A stretch of DNA of 11,081 nucleotides from Coleofasciculus sp. S288 (GTDB lineage Bacteria; Cyanobacteriota; Cyanobacteriia; Cyanobacteriales; Coleofasciculaceae). Position numbers and translations under genes: made by a program. The notes under the pieces are model-generated. The model ran no database searches, was not told where the DNA came from, and saw nothing but the letters and a program-made list of their open reading frames with translations. Positions 588-11,081 of this stretch are shown here, in pieces. How positions within the stretch are numbered: the stretch's first letter is position 1; every line of letters begins with the position of its first letter. The DNA is taken from contig JAIUYC010000041.1 of assembly GCA_020216575.1 (NCBI GenBank), forward strand, positions 1 through 11,081, read 5' to 3'.

Positions 588-1133
588 ATGCACGAACTAA
601 CGTTAGAGTGGCGAGAAGCGGGTCGGATCAAACGAGAAACCATTCTCGATCAACAACCGAGTAAGAATCCGGGAACTGTACGGCTTGGTCGTGACCCAGC
701 GCGGTGTGATATTGTTCTGATCGACCCGACGGTGTCAGGGCTGCACGTTGAAATCTTTTTTAATGCTCAGCAGCATTCCTTTATATTGCGGAACCTGCGA
801 AGTACCAATCCACCCTTGGTCGATGGACAAGTTGTGGGTCAGGTAGACGTGCGACTCAACACGGGCAGCATAATTTATTTAGGACAACAGATATTGCACG
901 TTACGGCTGTGTCTCTAGCGGTGATGAATGGGGGCATTGCACAAACGATTTTACTCCCACCTCAAGCACCTGTCCGCTTTAACCCACCTCAGCCAGCCAG
1001 TGCCTCATATGGTCTTCAGTGTCCTCGCTGTAATCGAGTGTCTCCCTACAATCGCATCGATTTGGGGTGTCAGTGGTGCGGTACCTCTCTGGCTGCTGCG
1101 CCTAGTGTGTTAATGGTTCCCAACGCTAATTGA
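588..1133 (+). CDS. FHA domain protein with C-terminal zinc ribbon
   Basis: This 181-residue soluble protein has no signal peptide or membrane segment. Residues about 30-105 form a forkhead-associated domain, a phosphothreonine-binding module: the GRD loop at 34-36, S50-x-x-H53 and the NLRSTN loop at 69-74 match the usual phosphopeptide-contact motifs. A proline-rich linker (123-138) leads to two CxxC pairs, CPRC at 145-148 and CQWC at 161-164, which look like a zinc ribbon. An AGG-TAGGG purine stretch precedes the ATG. The gene is followed after 13 bp by a second FHA gene, so they are probably co-transcribed and act together, perhaps reading the output of a Ser/Thr kinase encoded elsewhere. 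The phospho-ligand is unknown. Confidence 0.85.
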   Translation: MHELTLEWREAGRIKRETILDQQPSKNPGTVRLGRDPARCDIVLIDPTVSGLHVEIFFNAQQHSFILRNLRSTNPPLVDGQVVGQVDVRLNTGSIIYLGQQILHVTAVSLAVMNGGIAQTILLPPQAPVRFNPPQPASASYGLQCPRCNRVSPYNRIDLGCQWCGTSLAAAPSVLMVPNAN

Positions 1134-1146
1134 AGGATAGAATGGC

Positions 1147-3147
1147 ATGCAGTCTGGGCGATCGCGAATTCAGTTGAGCTGGGACGATCCAACAACAGGT
1201 GATCGGCGACAACCCTTGCTTAATCTGCCTATTGCTCTCGGTCGTGATTTTCATCAGATGCCTATTGAGATTCAAGGGCGTCCTGTTTCTCGGATAGTTC
1301 TCAGCAGCCTTGAGGTTTCTCGCTTCCACGTCTTGATTGACCAAGACAGTGGCGGGTTAATGGTCATTGACCAACATAGCCGCAACGGTACTTTTATAAA
1401 TGGCACCCGTGTTGTAGAAAATAACCGTATACCCTTCAATGAGGGGGATTCGCTACAAATTGGACCTTACCAAATTACTGTAAGCTTTGCCGCGATCGCA
1501 TCCCCATCTCCCCCTTCTGGCAACTCTCAGATTTTCTTTAACCCAAACACGGGATTACCCGACCCCAACCAGCTTTCATCCCAAGCGGCAGCATTACGCA
1601 GGGGCAGCGCAGCAGGTCGTTCCTCGTTTCCCCCCTCTCTATTTGACGCATTGGAAGTCGATGTGCAAGACCTTCATGCCACTGGATTACCGGTAGATGA
1701 AGTGGATTATGCAACCCTTGGGGCGGGGTTGGGTAGTTTTGTGTGGGTGGATTTATTGAGAATTTACGGCGCGAACAGCCGTCAGATTGCTGCTTTAGGC
1801 ATTGACCCGACGCCCTACAGCCGTTACAAGCAACTGTGTCTGAATTCTCAAATTCCCCTACACGAACGGCTGCGTTCTAATTCGGATTCCTGTCCGGATA
1901 ATATTTGGGGCTGGCCTAGCTATGCGTTGCGCGAAGCATGGCATGATTTGTTACAAGGGCGCTTAAACGCATCATTAAGCTATTTGTGGCAAGTGTTTGC
2001 TGAGCCAGCGTTTGCCCAAACCTATACGCCTCGTGCTGGTAACGTATTTGATTCGCTCGATCGGGAAGCCAAGCGAATTGGTTGGGAACAGATGTTTCGT
2101 TATGCAAGTGTGCGTGCAATTCGGAAAACGACCGATGGGCGATATGCGATCGCATTTTCCCGCACCCGCACCGAACGCCGCGACCATGCCTTCCTAGTTG
2201 CCCGCTACGTTCACCTGGCAACAGGCTATCCAGCGATTAAGTTTCTCCCCGATTTGCAAGCGTATCGAGAGAAAACCCAGGATTTTCGGTCGGTGGTCAA
2301 TGCCTACGAACCGCACGACTATGTATACGAGCATTTAAAGAACTATGGCGGTACGGTGCTGATACGCGGACGGGGAATTGTTGCCTCGCGAATTGTACAG
2401 CGAGTGTATGAAATAAGGCAGTACAACCCACAGATTCGGCTCGTGCATTTAATGCGATCGCCCAAACCCCAAGGTAACAAATTTGGCACTGCTCAACGAC
2501 TGGTCAAACACCACTACGAATTTCAACCCTTCAACTGGCCTAAAGCCTGCTGGGGTGGAGAACTCCGGACAATGCTGGAGAATGCTGAACCCCAACAGCG
2601 ACAGCGCTTACTCACCGACTGGGGCGGCACAACCACGGCTGACCGTCATGACTGGAAGCGCATTGTGGAAGCAGGGATTAGTCAAGGTTGGTACAAAATT
2701 GAATTCGGGGAAGTCGAACGAGTTGAACGCGAAAAAGACTGCATTGTCACTTACATTCAGGAAAAACACTACAAAGGACAAATGCGGCTAGAAGCCGACT
2801 TTATCATTGATGCTACGGGACTTGATGCAGACGTAACCGCAAGCCCTCTCTTGAATGACCTCGTGACGCATTACAACCTGCCACTCAATCCCTTGGGGCG
2901 TCTGAACGTAAGCAATGATTTTGAACTCGTGGAGATGCGTGGTTCCCGAGGTCGAATGTATGCGGCTGGTGCAATTACTTTAGGTGGACCGTATGCTGCT
3001 GTTGATAGCTTCCTAGGTTTACAGTATGCTGCCCTACGTGCCGTGGATGCGATCGCTGCCATGAAAGCTCCCGGTATCAAACCATTAAACCCCCTGAGTT
3101 CCTTATTGCAATGGTTAAAGTGGGTTGGAAATCAACCTCCTGTGTAG
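1147..3147 (+). CDS. FHA domain fused to FAD/NAD(P)-binding oxidoreductase-like protein
   Basis: This 666-residue protein has two parts. Residues about 28-112 are an FHA domain with GRD at 32-34, S58-x-x-H61 and N80-G81-T82. A low-complexity Ser/Pro linker (about 115-165) leads to a flavoprotein-like region. Its signs are LGAGLGS at 191-197 (a dinucleotide-binding glycine loop), a second loop GRGIVAS at 408-414 after a beta strand, IIDATGLD at 553-560 (the ATG motif of two-dinucleotide-binding flavoproteins) and a C-terminal GAITLGGPYAAVDS segment (608-621). This order recalls flavin N-monooxygenase/pyridine nucleotide oxidoreductase folds, but the substrate cannot be told. AAGGA lies 9 bp before the chosen ATG; an out-of-frame ATG lies 5 bp upstream. 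No membrane segment is seen. The FHA part suggests that localisation or activity depends on Thr phosphorylation of a partner, perhaps the upstream FHA protein. Confidence 0.8.
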   Translation: MQSGRSRIQLSWDDPTTGDRRQPLLNLPIALGRDFHQMPIEIQGRPVSRIVLSSLEVSRFHVLIDQDSGGLMVIDQHSRNGTFINGTRVVENNRIPFNEGDSLQIGPYQITVSFAAIASPSPPSGNSQIFFNPNTGLPDPNQLSSQAAALRRGSAAGRSSFPPSLFDALEVDVQDLHATGLPVDEVDYATLGAGLGSFVWVDLLRIYGANSRQIAALGIDPTPYSRYKQLCLNSQIPLHERLRSNSDSCPDNIWGWPSYALREAWHDLLQGRLNASLSYLWQVFAEPAFAQTYTPRAGNVFDSLDREAKRIGWEQMFRYASVRAIRKTTDGRYAIAFSRTRTERRDHAFLVARYVHLATGYPAIKFLPDLQAYREKTQDFRSVVNAYEPHDYVYEHLKNYGGTVLIRGRGIVASRIVQRVYEIRQYNPQIRLVHLMRSPKPQGNKFGTAQRLVKHHYEFQPFNWPKACWGGELRTMLENAEPQQRQRLLTDWGGTTTADRHDWKRIVEAGISQGWYKIEFGEVERVEREKDCIVTYIQEKHYKGQMRLEADFIIDATGLDADVTASPLLNDLVTHYNLPLNPLGRLNVSNDFELVEMRGSRGRMYAAGAITLGGPYAAVDSFLGLQYAALRAVDAIAAMKAPGIKPLNPLSSLLQWLKWVGNQPPV

Positions 3148-3152
3148 AATTA

Positions 3153-3166
3153 AAGCGATCGCGCTT
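3153..3166. other. Palindrome containing HIP1 in the convergent gap
   Basis: AAGCG-ATCG-CGCTT forms a 5-bp stem with a 4-nt loop, built on a HIP1 octamer (3155-3162). It fills the 18-bp gap between the end of the FHA fusion gene and the end of vapC. It could act as a weak bidirectional terminator, but it lacks a U-run on either side, so it may simply be a HIP1 copy. Confidence 0.3.
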
Positions 3167-3624
3167 CACTTCGTCGTTCCAAAACACCAATTCTCCAGTG
3201 TTAACGCCTGCACTTCCTGAATACGGACAAAGTCGCTGTCAGCCGAAACTACGGTTAAGTTGTAGCTGATCGCCGTCGCAGCAATCCACAGATCGTTGTC
3301 ACTAAAACCCAGCTTTTGAATGGTTGTATTTCTAGCTTGTTTTTTGTCCTTGGGGCCGAAATGTTTTAAAATGTTCGCTTTAAGTTTACCGTAGCAATCA
3401 GAGATAGCATTATCAATTAGATACGTATTGATGTTGTCTAGAAAGGGAGAAAATCTCTTATAATTCTCTTCTACTCTTTCAAACCGCTCTATCATAAAAA
3501 TCAGTTCGTCGCGAGTAATAGCACTGATACCTACTCCCTGGATACTATTTTCTTGAAGTTTTTTAATGACATCAGGATTGGCTCCGATAATCTGACTACA
3601 GTGATTAGTATCCAGCAAATACAC
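3166..3624 (-). CDS. vapC: PIN domain ribonuclease, VapC-type toxin
   Basis: This 152-residue protein opens with YLLDTNHCS, the first PIN-domain strand with acidic residue D5. Further candidate metal ligands are E40 (ITRDEL), D111 (SDNDLWIAA) and D129/D131 (SADSDF), giving the full acidic set expected of an active Mg2+-dependent RNase. VapC toxins cleave tRNA or rRNA and are blocked by a cognate antitoxin normally encoded just upstream. Here the upstream gene is hsdR, ending 2 bp before the start. The start is GTG at 3624, and its GGAG Shine-Dalgarno motif lies inside the last hsdR codons, so translation is probably coupled. No separate vapB is present, but the HsdR tail is antitoxin-like. 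It is the last gene of the minus-strand operon. Confidence 0.85.
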   Translation of the reverse strand: MYLLDTNHCSQIIGANPDVIKKLQENSIQGVGISAITRDELIFMIERFERVEENYKRFSPFLDNINTYLIDNAISDCYGKLKANILKHFGPKDKKQARNTTIQKLGFSDNDLWIAATAISYNLTVVSADSDFVRIQEVQALTLENWCFGTTK

Positions 3625-3626
3625 GC

Positions 3627-3752
3627 TTAGAACTCCGCTTCAGTGCGATTGTCGTAAACAGCTTGGAGACATTCATCTAGATCGTCACCAACCCACGCTC
3701 CAACGAACTTTAGTAAATCTCCTGCTGTTGAACCACGCCAAACGATTGCAGG
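3627..3752 (-). other. Antitoxin-like C-terminal extension of HsdR (possible nested antitoxin)
   Basis: HsdR residues about 1003-1043 contain VWRGSTAGDLLKF, then GAWVGDDLDECLQAVYDNR, ending in TEAEF. The pattern (LL-F-G-W, then an acidic DDL-ECL--VY--R helix) is that of short C-terminal segments of antitoxins encoded directly before PIN toxins in cyanobacteria, and a PIN toxin gene does follow after 2 bp. An in-frame ATG at 3824 (HsdR M979) would give a free 65-residue protein, but I see no good ribosome binding site before it. So the tail could work as a fusion, as a nested gene product, or not at all. The assignment is from pattern memory and context, not from a search. Confidence 0.45.
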
Positions 3753-6700
3753 ATTGCTAGCATCATCTGCGCGTCGTGTAGGTTGTTCGAGCTGAAACTG
3801 TTTAACACCTCTGTCGTAATCCATCTCAAATAAGGTGTCAGTTAGCCAGGTTTTAAATTCTGGGTTGTCTGTATATTGGCGATAGGCTTCAATGTGGTCG
3901 AATACATAGCCTTGAAAGGCATCTTCTAGCTTCTTCTCAAAGGTAATACGAGCATTTTGGCGATCGGAATATTTTTTAGCGTTCTGGTACTCTTCATCTT
4001 GACTAACTTCTCTCGGCAAGTCTTCAAATAAAAATCGGCGTACTCTATCTCTATCTGTCCAATCGATATTTCCGAAGCGTTCGTTGAAGTCCTGAATAAT
4101 GTTGCTCAAGAAATCTAAATCTGGCTCGTATCTCCTGCCTCGCGGTTCGGGGGGTGTAGGCGTGAGTTCTGCGCCATCTTCAAGTAAAATGGCTTGAGTT
4201 GTCTGCCGCTCAACACGATAGCTGTCTACGCTGACACTTTCTAGAACACCGTCAGATAAATCGGCATCGTTGAAGAGAGGCAGTTTGGGGATTAGGAATT
4301 TCAAGAACGTTTTGAGACTTTCCCAGTAAGTATTTTTGAACGTGCGAATTTGAACGAGAAACTGGTAGTTACGGACGAAAGACTTGGCTTGTTTCTTAAA
4401 GTCGATTTGTTCGTCTTCGTCTAAGTCTTTCTTGTAGGTTTCAAGGCAAGTATTGAGGATGGGGTCAAGTCGATCGCGATCTACTCCTGCGAGGAATAGC
4501 ACCATAAATCGGTTAACATCCTCTGGGGAGTAAACCTGGTAAGTATCAAGAGCATCTTGTAGATTGTTGAGGCGATCGAGGTCTGTTTCTTCGCTGAGGA
4601 TGGTGGTTTTGTAGAAGGGGGCAAATGCGGATTTTATCGCATCAATTGTATTGACAAAATCAAGAATAAATGTATCTGTTTTACCGGGATAGGCACGGTT
4701 GAGGCGGGAAAGAGTTTGAACTGCCTTCACGTCAGATAAAGGCTTGTCCACGTACATGGTGTGGAGAAGCGGTTCGTCAAATCCGGTTTGATACTTATTG
4801 GCGGCGATGAGAAAGCGATACTCGCTCTTTTTAAATTCTTCAGGAATATCATTACCAGGGAAGCCATTCATCGAGTCTTCATCTTCTGTTCTGCCATCGA
4901 CTTCTTTTCGCCCAGAGAAGGCAACAATGGTTTTGTAACTCGATTTGATTTCCCTTAAATAAGCATCGAAGGCAAGTTTATAACGAATGGCGTTCATAAT
5001 GCTGCTAGTGACAACCATCGCTTTTGCTTGTCCGTTAATTTTGCGTAAACCGATGACTTCCTCTAGGAAGTGATCGACCATAATCTCGGTTTTTTGGCGG
5101 ATAGCGTGAGGATGCCCTTCGACGTATTCCTTAAGCTTTTTATTAGCGCGTTTGGTGTCGAACTGCGGGTCAGCTTCAATCTTTTTCTGGAGCTTGTAGT
5201 AGCTCTGGAAGGGAGTGTAGTATTGCAGGACATCGAGGATAAAGCCTTCCTCAATGGCTTGCTTCATTGAGTAGTTGTGGAAGGGATAAAATTTACCGTC
5301 GGTTGGATCGTAAGTGCCGAAGGTTTCTAGAGTTTTATTTTTGGGCGTTGCGGTGAAGGCATAGTAACTGGCGTTATCAGAGAGCTTCTGTTCTTCAATA
5401 ATGCGAAGAATCTTGTCTTCTGTCGTTTCCTCTTCCTCACCTTCTTCTTTGCTGAGAGCAGCACTCATTTTAGCTGCTTTACTACCGCTTTGGCTGGAGT
5501 GGGCTTCATCAATGATGATGGCAAACCGCTTATCGTTTAAAGACTGGATATCGTCAACGATATAAACAAATTTATCAACGGTTGTGATGATGACTTTTTT
5601 GCCTGCTTCTAAAGCTTTTTTGAGTTGCTTGCTGCCTTGAGTAATTGGCTGAACAACGCCTTTAACCTGGGCAAATTGTTTGATATTCTCGCGGATTTGC
5701 TTGTCGAGGACTTTGCGATCGCTAACCACCACAATTGAATCAAAGACCGGGTTAATATTAGTCGCGTCAGTGAGTTCGACCAGTTGGTGACTCAGCCAAG
5801 TGATGGAATTGCTTTTACCCGATCCGGCAGAATGTTGAATGAGATAGCGGTGTCCAACACCTTTTTCCTTGGTGTCAGCGAGAAGCTTCCGCACTACATC
5901 AAGTTGGTGGTAGCGAGGGAAGATGAGTTTGCGTTTCTTGGTCTTGCCATCGCCTGTTTCTTCAACAATCTGAGCGTATTTTTCAATAATGTTGCTGAGA
6001 CTGGGTTTGGTAAGGATGTGTTTCCAGAGGTAGTTGGTTGTGATGCCGTTGGGATTGATGGGGTTACCTGCACTGTCGGGAAAGCGCAGGTCTGGGTCAG
6101 ATTTTTTACCTTTATTGAAGGGGAGAAAGGTAGTTGACTTGCCTTTGAGTTCGGTCGTCATGTATACCAGTTCTTCATCAACAGCAAAGTGAACGAGGCA
6201 ACGGGCAAAGTCAAATAAAGGTTCTTTGGGGTCGCGGTCAGTTTGGTACTGCCGCATGGCATCTTTGACGTTTTGTTTGGTCAGGTTGTTTTTGAGTTCA
6301 AAGGTGATGAGGGGTAAGCCGTTGATGAAGATGGCTAGATCGAGGGCAAGTTTTGTGTTGTCGTCACTGTAGCGCAGTTGGCGAGTGACACTGAAGCGGT
6401 TGGCGTTGTAGCGTTGGATGGTTTCGGGGTTGAGTTGAGAGGCGGGTTGCTTGTAGTAGAGGGTGAGGGTGATTTCTTGCGCTTTGATGCCGTTGCGCAG
6501 AACGTCAACGATACCTCTGGTTTTAACTTGGTCTGAAATGCGCTTGAGGAGTTTATCTTCAAACCGCGTGCCGTAGGTGGTGGTGAGTTTAGCGACGGCT
6601 TGGGGTTGGGTGGCGCGGAGGAATTCTAGCAGTTGGGCTTTGTCAATGCAGTAGGCGCGATCGTAGTTGCTGGGGTTGCCGTTGATGTAGCCCGCGTCTT

Positions 6701-6758
6701 CTCTCAGGCTGCTGGCGATGAGAATTTCTAAGCCCCGTTCGGACATATCGGTAGGCAT
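3627..6758 (-). CDS. hsdR: Type I restriction enzyme R subunit (HsdR), with unusual C-terminal tail
   Basis: This 1043-residue motor and nuclease subunit of the type I complex translocates DNA using ATP and cuts unmodified DNA. The N-terminal endonuclease domain shows a PD-(D/E)xK core: D140, then E154-L-K156, with RQYQTDRD (169-176) as the downstream QxxxY-like motif. The SF2 translocase follows: Walker A AGSGKS at 311-316, TTVDKF (392-397), DEAH at 417-420, a TAT motif III in YAFTATPKNK, and NKYQTGFDE and QTLSRLNRAY as motifs V and VI. All catalytic residues look intact. A GGGAGGAG Shine-Dalgarno motif precedes the ATG. xisI ends 48 bp upstream. The recognisable R-subunit sequence seems to end near residue 985; the last ~40 residues resemble a VapC antitoxin tail (separate entry). 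vapC starts 2 bp after the stop. Confidence 0.93.
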   Translation of the reverse strand: MPTDMSERGLEILIASSLREDAGYINGNPSNYDRAYCIDKAQLLEFLRATQPQAVAKLTTTYGTRFEDKLLKRISDQVKTRGIVDVLRNGIKAQEITLTLYYKQPASQLNPETIQRYNANRFSVTRQLRYSDDNTKLALDLAIFINGLPLITFELKNNLTKQNVKDAMRQYQTDRDPKEPLFDFARCLVHFAVDEELVYMTTELKGKSTTFLPFNKGKKSDPDLRFPDSAGNPINPNGITTNYLWKHILTKPSLSNIIEKYAQIVEETGDGKTKKRKLIFPRYHQLDVVRKLLADTKEKGVGHRYLIQHSAGSGKSNSITWLSHQLVELTDATNINPVFDSIVVVSDRKVLDKQIRENIKQFAQVKGVVQPITQGSKQLKKALEAGKKVIITTVDKFVYIVDDIQSLNDKRFAIIIDEAHSSQSGSKAAKMSAALSKEEGEEEETTEDKILRIIEEQKLSDNASYYAFTATPKNKTLETFGTYDPTDGKFYPFHNYSMKQAIEEGFILDVLQYYTPFQSYYKLQKKIEADPQFDTKRANKKLKEYVEGHPHAIRQKTEIMVDHFLEEVIGLRKINGQAKAMVVTSSIMNAIRYKLAFDAYLREIKSSYKTIVAFSGRKEVDGRTEDEDSMNGFPGNDIPEEFKKSEYRFLIAANKYQTGFDEPLLHTMYVDKPLSDVKAVQTLSRLNRAYPGKTDTFILDFVNTIDAIKSAFAPFYKTTILSEETDLDRLNNLQDALDTYQVYSPEDVNRFMVLFLAGVDRDRLDPILNTCLETYKKDLDEDEQIDFKKQAKSFVRNYQFLVQIRTFKNTYWESLKTFLKFLIPKLPLFNDADLSDGVLESVSVDSYRVERQTTQAILLEDGAELTPTPPEPRGRRYEPDLDFLSNIIQDFNERFGNIDWTDRDRVRRFLFEDLPREVSQDEEYQNAKKYSDRQNARITFEKKLEDAFQGYVFDHIEAYRQYTDNPEFKTWLTDTLFEMDYDRGVKQFQLEQPTRRADDASNPAIVWRGSTAGDLLKFVGAWVGDDLDECLQAVYDNRTEAEF

Positions 6759-6806: not shown

Positions 6807-7142
6807 CTAACTTACGGCAAATTCAGTATGAGGGCGAATTTCGGGAGGATGGAAGGCAAGGACGATGCGATCTTTAGGAATACCTGCGGCAACTAAGTCA
6901 TTAGCGATACCGTCTTCTGTGCCATCTCGATGAATCCATATTTTATCATTGATGATTTCGATGTGAACTAAACAACCGTGTACTCGTTTGTTCTGTTGCC
7001 ATCCCAAGGTTAGAAGTAGGTAATTAGTATGATCTTCACTAACAATCAACCGTCTTTGTAAATCTCCGTAAGAGTAGGGAATTTGAAAATATTCATGAAG
7101 GATTTTATAAATAATTTCACGGTAGCGTTCTAAGGTATCCAT
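6807..7142 (-). CDS. xisI: XisI family protein
   Basis: This 111-residue protein is the usual XisI length, with the family's start (MDTLERYREII), a central GWxxxxRVHGCLVHIEI-type block at about 47-64, KIWIHRDGTEDGIANDL (67-83), and the conserved ending TEFAVS. XisH and XisI were first described as needed for excision of the fdxN element during Anabaena heterocyst development; most homologues occur away from that element and their general role is unresolved. The start lies inside the ancestral end of xisH: the in-frame continuation of xisH beyond its premature stop would end at 7130, overlapping xisI by 13 bp. No XisF/XisA-type recombinase or fdxN element border is visible here. It probably acts with XisH, its constant neighbour. 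Confidence 0.9.
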   Translation of the reverse strand: MDTLERYREIIYKILHEYFQIPYSYGDLQRRLIVSEDHTNYLLLTLGWQQNKRVHGCLVHIEIINDKIWIHRDGTEDGIANDLVAAGIPKDRIVLAFHPPEIRPHTEFAVS

Positions 7143-7195
7143 TGTAATATTACCTCTTTGGCAGAATCAAAAACAATCAAATTTAAACGTTTATT

Positions 7196-7546
7196 TTATA
7201 ATAAAATTCCTCCGATGGGTTCTTCAAAAATGTCAGAGAAGGTTTCATATCGGATAGCTAAATAAAGTATGCGTTCTGGTTCTAGGCGTTGGAGAATATC
7301 GTAGTAAAGGATATATTGCCCTAGAGCTTGTTCTAAATTTGCAACTTCAGATAAGCCAACAAAGCTTTTGATTTCGACAGCAATTTTTTGTCCTTGTCTT
7401 TCAGCAGCGAGAAGTTTTTCGGCTCCTAGATCGACGAATAAATCTTTTTTACCCCATTGTAAGGTGAGTGGATCGTTGGTAATTGTCCAACCGTCTTTGA
7501 TGAGGGCGTTTTTAACGGTGTCGTGGTAGATGTCTTTAGCTGGCAT
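7196..7546 (-). CDS. xisH: XisH family protein, C-terminus cut by an in-frame stop
   Basis: I start at MPAKD (7546), the standard XisH N-terminus, although the frame stays open eight codons further upstream inside hsdS. The protein is 116 residues. XisH has a PD-(D/E)xK-like nuclease fold; D39 (FVDLGAEK), E58 and K60 (VEIKSF) fit its core. XisH proteins are normally about 138 residues. Here TAA at 7196-7198 stops the frame after EEPIGGILL, yet the same frame continues with NKRLNLIVFDSAKEVILQWIP, a typical XisH ending, to TAG at 7130-7132, giving exactly 138 positions. So this is a recent nonsense mutation, a read-through site or a sequencing error. The start overlaps the hsdS stop by 11 bp, indicating coupled translation. 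Confidence 0.85.
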   Translation of the reverse strand: MPAKDIYHDTVKNALIKDGWTITNDPLTLQWGKKDLFVDLGAEKLLAAERQGQKIAVEIKSFVGLSEVANLEQALGQYILYYDILQRLEPERILYLAIRYETFSDIFEEPIGGILL

Positions 7547-8867
7547 AGGCAGTGTCTCGCACTTCTGCATAGTCTCGCACGTCTATTTTACCGGTGACGG
7601 TATCGGAAATGAGGGTGGTTCGGTATTCTTGGATTAGTTCGATCTCTTTTTCGGCTTGTGCGATCGCAAGTTTTATTTTTTGAAATTCCTTATCTAGAAA
7701 TTCTAAAATTTGTGACTGCTCTTCAAGATTTGGAAGTAGAACTCTAACCTTACTTATTAAGCCTGCACTCAAATTCATCTGGCTGGTTTCATTGCCAGTA
7801 TCTCTTATGTACTCATATGCACTTGTTAAATAGTAGTACAGGTACTTCGTCTTTAATAAATTGCAAGGATACATGGCTAAGCAAGCTTGGTTAAAAGCAG
7901 CCTCTATGCCTAAGACAGCTACTCTACCTCGTGTTACTCCCTGCCCATACATACCCATCAGAACTGTACCAGGAGATGCCAGCTTAGCTGATGAGTTTTT
8001 TAAACCTACCTCAGTAATATACTCTTCTGTTTCTCTGATTTCGTTATAATTTATTTCCCCAGTTTTGACCCAAGGAATTTCACCATTCCAGTATTCTTGA
8101 CGGTTTCTGTCTGGTGTTCCACCAGAGGTAAGACGACAGACATAACCTAGAACACTGATTCCCCAATGCTCAGGAATCTCACCAATCCAATGGATGCCTG
8201 ACTCTTTCATTGGAACATCGGGGTTAAGCCCCCTGGTAAGGGTACGGTTAATCAGGGCAGTTTTCTGCTCATTGAGTAATTCGATGAGCCGTCGCTTGTA
8301 GCAGATGAACTGGTCGATTTGTGCGAGTTTGTGGTTTATATAAGTAACGATTCTACGTTGTTCATCTATAGGTGGACAAAATATCGGAATTTGGAAAAAG
8401 TCATCAGAGTACATCCGAAGCCTAGATGAGCGAATCCCCTGCGATCTGCGGTGATATTCAGCAACATATTCCGGTATTCTGGCAAGATAATCTAGGTATA
8501 CAGAATCAAAACAACTTTTATCTCTCAATCTATATACGCCGTAAGAAGAACTGACTATTCCTCTGTGTCTAGATAGTCCTAATGCACCCATCCAAGCCCA
8601 CATGATGTTAATCACTAAGTCATCAGGATGGCATAATTTAAAACCCTCATAGGACTCAGCCATAAACATTGTGATGTTCTTTTCACTCCGAGGCGTGACT
8701 CCTGTGATATGAGAAACAGAGAGTAACTCTTCATTACCTGCTTCGGAACGTTCATCAATTTCACGAAAGAAATATTTTGCCCGCTTCACTTCCCAATGTT
8801 CAGGCACTTTATCGATAAACGATAATCCAGAAGCCTTGTAAACTGAATATTGCTTCATTCCTCCCAT
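7536..8867 (-). CDS. hsdS: Type I restriction-modification specificity subunit (HsdS)
   Basis: This 443-residue protein has two half-repeats, as expected of HsdS, which reads both halves of a bipartite target. Target-recognition domain 1 runs from VPEHWEVKR (21-29) to about 165. A helical spacer follows (PIDEQRRIVTYINHKLAQID, 166-185, to about 215). Domain 2 starts with IPEHWGIS (231-238), preceded by the repeated MKESGIHWIG block, and ends near 380. The closing helix LEEQSQILEFLDKE to TVTGKIDVRD mirrors the spacer. The two recognition domains differ, so the site should be asymmetric. The family usually begins MKQY, which fits the internal ATG at 8858; the frame's first ATG is at 8867, and neither has a well-spaced ribosome site. 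It ends inside the start of xisH. Confidence 0.92.
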   Translation of the reverse strand: MGGMKQYSVYKASGLSFIDKVPEHWEVKRAKYFFREIDERSEAGNEELLSVSHITGVTPRSEKNITMFMAESYEGFKLCHPDDLVINIMWAWMGALGLSRHRGIVSSSYGVYRLRDKSCFDSVYLDYLARIPEYVAEYHRRSQGIRSSRLRMYSDDFFQIPIFCPPIDEQRRIVTYINHKLAQIDQFICYKRRLIELLNEQKTALINRTLTRGLNPDVPMKESGIHWIGEIPEHWGISVLGYVCRLTSGGTPDRNRQEYWNGEIPWVKTGEINYNEIRETEEYITEVGLKNSSAKLASPGTVLMGMYGQGVTRGRVAVLGIEAAFNQACLAMYPCNLLKTKYLYYYLTSAYEYIRDTGNETSQMNLSAGLISKVRVLLPNLEEQSQILEFLDKEFQKIKLAIAQAEKEIELIQEYRTTLISDTVTGKIDVRDYAEVRDTAYAS

Positions 8868-9053: not shown

Positions 9054-9088
9054 ACTGATAACTATTTACTGTTCACTGATAACTGTCC
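9054..9088. repeat. Phased heptamer tract (ACTNNNN), five units
   Basis: ACTGATA, ACTATTT, ACTGTTC, ACTGATA and ACTGTCC follow each other in perfect 7-bp phase. The tract fills most of the gap between uma2 and the small ORF, and its last base belongs to the uma2 stop codon (9088-9090). It is a diverged version of the cleaner tract at 9689-9758 on the other side of uma2. Confidence 0.75.
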
Positions 9089-9669
9089 TAACCCCCAAAA
9101 ACAACCTGTAAATCCAGTACAAATCCAGGTAAAACTTCTTCACCCGATAAACTCACAGGCGACTCTAAAACCTCTACCTCCTGATTCGGTCGATAAATTT
9201 CAACCCTTTTATTCTTCGCATCAATCAACCACCCCAAACGCAAACCATTTTCTAAATATTCCCGCATCTTTTTGCGTAAAGGTTCCATATTGTCACTCTT
9301 AGAACGCAATTCAATCACAAAGTCCGGACAAAGCGGTGGAAATGTCTCCTGTTGTTCCGGTGTCAATGCATCCCATCTCTCTTGACTCACCCAAGCATCA
9401 TCAGGAGAACGATCCGCACCATTAGGCAGTTGAAATGCTGTAGAAGAGTCAAAAGCAACCCCTAATTTTGCTTGACGATTCCACGCCTGAAGCTGAAAGG
9501 ATATATCAATATTTCGCCTTCCAGTATTTCCGCCAGTAGGTGGCATAATAATTAATTCTCCTGTAGCAGTTCGTTCAAGTCGCACATCTCGATTAGCAGC
9601 AGCTAGTTGCACAAACTGCTCCTGAGTAACTTTTAGTGTTTCTGGGATAATAACAGGAATCGTGTTCAT
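9088..9669 (-). CDS. Uma2 family (DUF820) putative endonuclease
   Basis: This 193-residue protein is the normal size for Uma2, a family very abundant in cyanobacteria with a PD-(D/E)xK restriction-endonuclease-like fold and no settled function. Visible marks are the N-terminal TQEQFVQLAAANRD helix, GELIIMPPTGG (37-47), SPDDAWV (88-94) with the acidic D90/D91, PDFVIELRSKSD (115-126) with E120, a helix LRKKMREYLENG, and GWLIDAKNKRVEIYRP (146-161). The usual catalytic lysine position after E120 is not clear-cut. The gene sits between hsdM and hsdS and has heptamer tracts on both sides, so it may be a later insertion. No clear ribosome binding site precedes the ATG; a 15-bp inverted repeat abuts it. 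Confidence 0.88.
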   Translation of the reverse strand: MNTIPVIIPETLKVTQEQFVQLAAANRDVRLERTATGELIIMPPTGGNTGRRNIDISFQLQAWNRQAKLGVAFDSSTAFQLPNGADRSPDDAWVSQERWDALTPEQQETFPPLCPDFVIELRSKSDNMEPLRKKMREYLENGLRLGWLIDAKNKRVEIYRPNQEVEVLESPVSLSGEEVLPGFVLDLQVVFGG

Positions 9670-9688: not shown

Positions 9689-9758
9689 ACTGATAACTGA
9701 TAACTGATAACTGATAACTGATAACTGATAACTGATAACTGGTCACTGCTCACTGATA
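9689..9758. repeat. Ten-unit heptamer tract overlapping the hsdM stop
   Basis: Seven perfect ACTGATA units (9689-9737) are followed in phase by ACTGGTC, ACTGCTC and ACTGATA. The tract fills most of the gap between hsdM and uma2 and runs into hsdM: its TGA stop (9743-9745) and the last four codons (ISEQ) are made of repeat units. It matches the STRR class of cyanobacterial heptamer repeats; copy number is likely to vary between strains. Confidence 0.9.
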
Positions 9759-11081
9759 ATTGTTTTAAGAACTCCCTCTGTTTGTGCCTCTAAAGCTAGT
9801 ATATCTGCTTTAATCTCCTCCAAACTTCGTAACGGTTTAAACTTGTAAAAATACTTTGTAAACGAAATCTCGTAACCCCTCACTGTCTTCTCGTAATCAA
9901 TCCAAGCATCCGGCACATGAGGCAATACCTCACGAGCAAAATACTCCTCAATATTTTCCTTCAAGGGTACGCTTTCTGTATCTCGCAACTCTGGATCGGG
10001 TTCATAAATCAAATCATCCTTCGTATTTTTCTGAATAACAGGTTCTGCTGTCTCGTTCTTTTCCGTAAACGTATCGTAAACTAACTTCAGTTCTTTCTGT
10101 GTCAGCTTCAGCTCTTCTGCCTTCAGCGCCTTCTCAAAAACCTTTTTAACTTCATTAAAATCTTTCTGCCGCTCACTGCCAAACAAATCTTCGAGCATAT
10201 CCACAACTGGATACAGCTTCTTATCTGCTGCTTCTTTGAACTGGGCAATTCGCTCCGGTGTTACCTGCAACGTTAACCGTAAAGGACGCTCAACTGTAAT
10301 TTTGTAATAGCCAAAGTCTTCGTTATCAAAAATCTTTGACTTCTCCGTTTCCTCAAAATTCAAAAACAATTTCGTAATCCGTTGGATATCGACTAGAGTT
10401 AGTTGGCAATTCTTCTTACCCAAATTCCTTCGCAACTTGCTATACCATTGTGTCGCATCGATTAACTGTACCTTGCCCTCGCGTTTGGTTCCTGCCTTGC
10501 GGTTCGACAGCACCCAAATATAGGTAGCAATATTCGTGTTGTAGAACATATCCAACGGCAAGCCAATAATTGCTTCCAACCAGTCATTTTCCAAAATCCA
10601 GCGCCGGATGTTGCTTTCTCCCTGTCCTGCATCTCCGGTAAACATCGCCGAACCATTATGCACGATCGCAATCCGACTCCCCAACCCAGTCTCTTGCTTC
10701 ATCTTGGCGAGTTTATTCACCAAAAACAAAAGCTGCCCATCGCTGGAACGGGGCAACAGTTGCAACTTTTCTCCAGGCGGCAACCCCTGATGATTGACGA
10801 TAAAGCGCGGATCGGTAATCTCCTTTTTCTTGCCTTTCCCTTCTTCCAGTTCCTCCTTATCCAACTTCCACGACTTCCCGTATGGCGGATTTGCCAGCAT
10901 AAAATCAAACTCTATCCCCCGAAAACCATCTTTTGCAAGCGTGGAGCCATACTTAATATCGCGAGGGTCTTTCCCTTTAATCAACATGTCCGCCTGACAA
11001 ATGGCGTAAGTTTCTGGGTTAACCTCCTGCCCGTAAAGCTGAATAGCAATCTTTTTACCCGTCTCGTCTGCCAGCTTTTGC
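9743..11081 (-). CDS. hsdM: Type I DNA methyltransferase subunit (HsdM), 5' end outside window
   Basis: The frame is open to the window edge, so about 445 C-terminal residues are seen; the ATG at 10987 is internal. From the edge, KKIAIQLYGQEVNPETYAIC leads into ADMLIKG and then FDFMLANPPYGKSW, with the NPPY motif IV (10880-10891) of N6-adenine methyltransferases. SRIAIVHNGSAMFTGDAGQGES (about 10617-10682) and WLEAIIGLPLDMFYNTNIATYIWVL are further conserved parts of the catalytic domain. The long charged helical C-terminus ends in RGYEISFTKYFYKFKPLRSLEEI, which in this family contacts HsdS. The SAM-binding motif I lies beyond the window. HsdM methylates adenines in the target chosen by HsdS and protects the host from HsdR. 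The final residues ISEQ are encoded within a heptamer repeat tract. Confidence 0.93.
   Translation of the reverse strand, partial: QKLADETGKKIAIQLYGQEVNPETYAICQADMLIKGKDPRDIKYGSTLAKDGFRGIEFDFMLANPPYGKSWKLDKEELEEGKGKKKEITDPRFIVNHQGLPPGEKLQLLPRSSDGQLLFLVNKLAKMKQETGLGSRIAIVHNGSAMFTGDAGQGESNIRRWILENDWLEAIIGLPLDMFYNTNIATYIWVLSNRKAGTKREGKVQLIDATQWYSKLRRNLGKKNCQLTLVDIQRITKLFLNFEETEKSKIFDNEDFGYYKITVERPLRLTLQVTPERIAQFKEAADKKLYPVVDMLEDLFGSERQKDFNEVKKVFEKALKAEELKLTQKELKLVYDTFTEKNETAEPVIQKNTKDDLIYEPDPELRDTESVPLKENIEEYFAREVLPHVPDAWIDYEKTVRGYEISFTKYFYKFKPLRSLEEIKADILALEAQTEGVLKTIISEQ

Follow-up and report, generated by a model that had tools for sequence, protein, structure and literature searches.

The locus described here raises the question of whether a restriction subunit can double as an antitoxin. 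In a cyanobacterial type I restriction system, the gene for the restriction subunit HsdR is followed almost immediately by a gene for a PIN-domain toxin, and a preliminary description held that the last residues of HsdR resemble the tail of the antitoxins that precede such toxins. The window, by which we mean the whole stretch of 11,081 nucleotides from Coleofasciculus sp. S288 that was analysed, is contig C775 of a genome bin (G000) that is 67% complete. Its minus strand carries, in this order, hsdM for the methyltransferase subunit (9743..11080, cut by the window end; PF02384, PADLOC MTase_I), a gene for a Uma2-family putative nuclease (9088..9669; PF05685, 165.9 bits), hsdS for the specificity subunit (7536..8867; PF01420, PADLOC Specificity_I), an xisH-like gene (7196..7570; PF08814, 170.8 bits), an xisI-like gene (6807..7142; PF08869, 146.4 bits), hsdR (3627..6758) and the PIN gene (3166..3624). 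HsdR, 1043 residues long with its tail, has the HSDR_N nuclease domain and the SF2 (SWI2/SNF2) motor of a type I restriction subunit, with hsdM and hsdS in the same operon, and Pfam recognizes restriction and helicase domains only within it.

No separate antitoxin gene lies between the hsdR stop codon (3629-3627) and the GTG start of the PIN gene, which follows after 2 nt. A GGAG read by eye at 3633..3636 on the minus strand, 8 nt before the GTG, may be the ribosome-binding site of the PIN gene; it sits within the last hsdR codons and would therefore suit translational coupling of the two genes. The 152-residue PIN protein, a VapC-like putative RNase, matches PF01850 with 43.4 bits, its residues D5, E40, D111 and D129 are invariant in 18 close relatives, and its nearest solved relatives are VapC toxins, in agreement with the preliminary view of an intact-looking toxin gene 2 bp after hsdR.

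The antitoxin-like tail of HsdR

The tail comprises about 38 residues at the C-terminus of HsdR (residues 1006-1043, VWRGSTAGDLLKFVGAWVGDDLDECLQAVYDNRTEAEF; 3630..3743, minus strand) and is joined to the natural end of HsdR by a variable linker (residues 986-1005; 3744..3803, minus strand). A protein search with residues 880-1043 returned 47 proteins, seven of which (1042-1045 residues) matched over the full region. The tail is absent from the other 40, and 27 of these are 975-995 residues long, typically stopping just past a ...DYD motif. A tail common to the whole HsdR family, which would have spoken against the antitoxin idea, is thereby ruled out, and so is an assembly artefact, given eight tailed proteins and a second tailed locus in Leptolyngbya. 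Another locus, L040, whose match reached residue 135 of a 160-residue C-terminal query, was rejected as a tailed candidate since its HsdR stops at ...DYDKKTA. The same 160-residue query matched 39 records in a plasmid collection of 72,556; 31 of them match the HsdR body alone (query ends at 95-102) and eight the tail region alone (query starts at 102-125), five of the latter being annotated as DUF2281 and three as hypothetical. Plasmid records match either the body or the tail region, and the two therefore belong to different families. In a structural model of HsdR (mean pLDDT 67.8), residues 984-1043 have block means of about 50 or lower, with three short low-confidence helices (1003-1009, 1012-1018 and 1027-1036) among them; this is compatible with a flexible tail but is no proof of one.

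The sequence comparisons indicate that the HsdR tail is almost certainly homologous to the C-terminal tails of small cyanobacterial antitoxins encoded before PIN toxins. Using a retrieval profile built from the eight HsdR tails and one further protein (P0002), we found 88 tail matches, which lie almost without exception at the ends of small ORFs and are spread over 54 of the 386 genomes searched in the phylum, among them that of the window. The best matches of this search and of the scans with the HsdR C-terminus yielded 46 stand-alone loci, 42 of them distinct after removal of four duplicates, and a PIN gene of the family linked to HsdR directly follows the tail in 29 of the 42. A profile made from 24 stand-alone tails matched all eight tailed HsdRs (59.8-68.8 bits) and none of the 40 untailed ones, a test that is partly circular because the stand-alone set was first retrieved with the HsdR-tail profile. 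W1022, G1024, D1026, R1038 and F1043 (tail positions 17, 19, 21, 33 and 38) are invariant in the eight HsdR and 24 stand-alone tails.

Because these loci came from an HsdR-tail query, a reverse search was begun from the PIN protein. At E 1e-40, the profile of the HsdR-linked PIN clade detected matching sequences in 45 of the 376 genomes searched in the class, and in 29 of the best 30 loci a tail match of at least 50 bits ends 2-35 nt upstream of the PIN match; the check is independent of the tail query, yet its PIN profile was made from the HsdR-linked clade and it covers the best 30 loci only. Two of the 30 are HsdR loci, which leaves 27 of 28 others with an adjacent upstream tail, the exception (L104) having its tail match about 225 nt upstream. 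The proposal that the tail looks like that of an antitoxin preceding a PIN toxin thus stood up in both directions, and the objection that it might match no antitoxin did not hold. No solved antitoxin in the PDB matched the tail profile, the best hit being a secretin at E 0.36.

In the remaining 13 of the 42 stand-alone loci no PIN of the family neighbours the tail, so that the tail can persist after the loss of its toxin or have some other role. Two of these loci (L012 and L013) retain the first PIN codons (MYLLDT...) after the tail antitoxin before the frame is lost; they are decayed toxins whose antitoxin was kept.

The small proteins that bear the tail differ in their N-terminal parts. DUF2281 (PF10047) was matched weakly by three of four stand-alone antitoxins, at 13.7-20.7 bits and below the cut-off of 26.5, and was not matched by the fourth (L036). 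At L110 the tail sits on an AF2212-like N-terminus (PF01954, 35 bits, cut-off 21.6) directly before a PIN gene, which means that the tail has moved between carriers, and in P0002 (117 residues, contig of 2260 bases) the tail follows yet a different N-terminal part, one that Pfam does not clearly match. The antitoxin tail may accordingly be regarded as a portable module found on different carriers. At L075 (minus strand) the tail belongs to a small protein whose N-terminus may be a zinc-ribbon (E 0.064) and whose tail is itself weakly matched by VAPB_antitox (E 0.016, under the cut-off); an ORF that looks methylase-like by eye adjoins it and no PIN gene lies within the flank examined, so it is either an orphan antitoxin or another carrier.

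Linkage and inheritance of the tail and the PIN gene

The second tailed locus read as DNA is in Leptolyngbya sp. SIO1E4 (G795, contig 1; L083), in the order hsdM, hsdS, Uma2, hsdR with tail, and PIN (assigned by Pfam), with one base shared by the hsdR stop and the PIN start. A PIN gene therefore directly follows the tailed hsdR in both loci read. Four other tailed HsdRs (P0004, P0006, P0008 and P0009) appear to share contigs with PINs of the same clade, judging from identical contig sizes (12215, 6966, 7243 and 12473), and with these a PIN would be on the contig of six of the eight tailed HsdRs; no such contig match turned up for P0003 or P0005 in the 120 PIN hits listed out of 1155. At untailed HsdR loci, the HsdR-linked PIN family, the only one searched for, was found in none of 22 distinct flanks (24 before two duplicates were removed), even at E 10, a count that includes one locus with just 61 nt downstream (L049) and three that are broken, partial or doubtful (L054, L076 and L082).

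The Leptolyngbya genome, which is 99% complete, has nothing besides the HsdR tail that matches the tail better than E 0.5, and its HsdR-linked PIN is the sole close member of the family there (275 bits, next 39). With the HsdR tail as its one strong tail match and a single close PIN, this genome shows no separate antitoxin that matches. No other tail match was found at E 1 in the window's own bin, where a missing second antitoxin says little because of the incompleteness of the bin.

In a tree of the HsdR body, the eight tailed proteins and P0043, a truncated relative, form one clade (100/100). P0043 keeps the linker and lacks the tail, and for this reason the tree program counts two label changes. 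The PIN tree was built from 26 locus PINs and from P0051-P0109 (59 of the 120 listed of 1155 hits). Left out of it, and of the distance tests, were the PINs that are short or in pieces (L017, L023, L028, L032, L038 and L060, the last a duplicate of L017) and the duplicates L064 and L078; the five distinct short or broken PINs are counted as having a PIN in the 29 of 42 given above. The HsdR-linked PINs form a single clade of 24 rows (99/96), and none of the 24 PINs that follow stand-alone antitoxins falls inside it. In the PIN search across the class (376 genomes), the highest scores, 275-276 bits, belonged to the two HsdR-linked PINs, and the next was 205. Distances between HsdR bodies correlate with those between PINs (r = 0.89, with 3 of 720 permutations as high), and distances between tails correlate with those between PINs across 30 pairs (r = 0.80, with none of 5000 permutations as high). 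The simplest reading of these sequence data would be one fusion, followed by joint inheritance of the tailed HsdR and its PIN.

Tailed HsdRs are rare among the genomes scanned. A scan with the HsdR C-terminus found the tailed form only in the window's bin and in the Leptolyngbya genome, among overlapping sets of 388 genomes of the order, 388 of the class, 63 of the Leptolyngbya genome's order and 20 of the family; the two represent two families (f1 and f26) of different orders. With the same query, a genome-contig and a viral-contig collection returned only untailed HsdRs, at two and three loci.

Readings of the fusion

The reading that best accommodates these observations is that a VapB-type tail has been fused to HsdR, and that HsdR is probably the antitoxin of the PIN protein and makes the toxin an addiction or back-up device for restriction. 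That the tail neutralises the PIN protein is, on the sequence comparisons, very likely. A different arrangement would have the tail recruit the PIN protein to the HsdR motor as an additional DNA or RNA effector, in which case toxicity of the PIN on its own would not be required. The homology and co-inheritance of tail and PIN would be expected equally under such docking, and the presence of an accessory Uma2 putative nuclease gene in both operons is in its favor. We nevertheless consider it unlikely, because the 27 of 28 non-HsdR loci found from the PIN side have the tail on a small protein just upstream, in the classical position of an antitoxin, and because the solved proteins nearest to the PIN are VapC toxins.

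The preliminary description also suggested that an internal ATG (M979; 3822..3824, minus strand) might yield a free 65-residue antitoxin, the fusion to HsdR being incidental. The codon is present, and P0001, a 65-residue protein from a Coleofasciculus MAG, starts at exactly this methionine, although this annotation may stem from an hsdR that is broken or split. The suggestion did not fare well otherwise: two of the eight tailed HsdRs lack the methionine, P0006 having I and P0009 having L there, a methionine occupies the same body position in 19 of 40 untailed HsdRs, and no clear ribosome-binding site is present, so that we regard this start as highly improbable. We think it just as hard to credit that a chance deletion merely fused the genes and left tail and PIN as decaying passengers. 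PIN-less tails are indeed common among the stand-alone copies, five of the remaining 29 PINs there are short or in pieces, and P0043 is tailless; yet the PIN encoded in the window is intact with invariant acidic residues, the fusion occurs in families of different orders, and the tail does not have the divergence of a relic. Averaged over pairs of the eight tailed HsdRs, sequence identity reaches 81.6% for the tail and 80.9% for the motor, compared with 76.6% for the N-terminal part, about 73% for the helical and C-terminal body and 62.2% for the linker; the tail is therefore as conserved as the motor, though not clearly more so. Between the window and Leptolyngbya hsdR genes, dN is 0.154 for the tail against 0.183 for the body and 0.47 for the linker; this is one pair, and because its dS is saturated no dN/dS ratio was taken.

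If HsdR is indeed the antitoxin, an ancestral cyanobacterial type I hsdR would have acquired, just beyond the point where it naturally ends, the tail with which a small VapB-type antitoxin binds its toxin, with the PIN gene staying directly downstream. The N-terminal domain of the antitoxin would have been lost, with HsdR in its place, and the usual autoregulation was probably lost along with it. Type II antitoxins usually bind their toxins through a C-terminal region that is unstructured (PMC5924515), and Phd-C, a short neutralising segment, works on the foreign carrier SUMO (PMC10440598). HsdR may likewise bind the co-translated PIN RNase through its tail and keep it inactive. By analogy, the loss or destruction of HsdR, whether through gene loss, proteolysis in restriction alleviation or phage attack on the restriction complex, would free the PIN protein, which might then cut RNA and arrest growth, making the cell dependent on its restriction system and providing that system with a back-up. 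Here we infer the binding, the neutralisation, the RNase activity and the trigger alike.

A more specific version, which we offer tentatively and would not call probable, is that HsdR acts as a sensor-antitoxin and the PIN RNase as a guard for restriction. Possible triggers would be phage anti-restriction, the loss of the operon, or degradation of HsdR by a ClpXP-type protease while restriction is being alleviated. Since removal of HsdR would also remove the sole antidote, a working type I enzyme would become a condition for survival. When restriction is alleviated in the EcoKI system, ClpXP degrades HsdR (PMC4231737), and a tailed HsdR may thus tie two controls into one molecule.

Relation to known systems

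As in VapBC, the locus has a PIN-domain toxin with conserved acidic residues and, by homology, a toxin-binding C-terminal segment encoded directly upstream; what it lacks is the small antitoxin, encoded separately and equipped with an N-terminal (often DNA-binding) domain, and it is therefore not a canonical VapBC. The type Ic system EcoprrI with its PrrC resembles what we propose in that a gene for a translation-disabling RNase lies in a type I operon and is silenced by the restriction enzyme. To our knowledge EcoprrI contains no fused antitoxin segment. The type I system restrains PrrC until a phage peptide inhibits the restriction enzyme (PMC2610378, PMC12707154, PMC3506569). PrrC, however, is an ABC-ATPase anticodon nuclease, whereas the accessory toxin here is a 152-residue PIN protein; with a toxin of another family, the locus is not a PrrC system. 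We class it as a type I system with a VapB-type tail on its restriction subunit, and as a variant of the restriction-guard idea.

Cyanobacterial VapBC pairs with DUF2281-like antitoxins have a homologous tail and PIN in the same gene order with genes overlapping or nearly touching; in the window, the place of their small N-terminal domain is taken by a restriction subunit some 985 residues long. A published list for Synechocystis 6803 includes DUF2281-PIN pairs (PMC4963859), and the available part of the Synechocystis VapBC15 paper contains nothing on the tail. The multidomain PanA antitoxins (PMC10440598) likewise place a short neutralising segment, Phd-C, on a carrier, but with other toxins and with carriers other than a restriction enzyme. 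The hypothesis of immunity-suicide coupling (PMC3506569) names PrrC and Cas1 in its available portion, which is silent on any HsdR with an antitoxin tail; an antitoxin-tailed HsdR is nonetheless what would be expected if immune proteins restrain linked toxins. We recognized no description of an HsdR-antitoxin fusion in the open-licence papers searched, and the locus offers a concrete example, backed by sequence, of an antitoxin tail borne by the effector subunit of an immune system.

Several neighbouring genes are recorded as minor observations. The Uma2 gene (PF05685) common to both tailed operons lies between hsdM and hsdS in the window and between hsdS and hsdR in Leptolyngbya (5403-5972 of L083). 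The XisH/XisI-like genes, which score above the Pfam cut-offs, lie inside the type I operon (window 6807-7570), and at another locus (L025) XisH/XisI-like ORFs, named by eye, follow a tail-bearing antitoxin ORF where the PIN gene would be. Finally, two FHA-domain proteins of 181 and 666 residues are encoded on the plus strand at 588-3147 of the window, adjoining the restriction operon.
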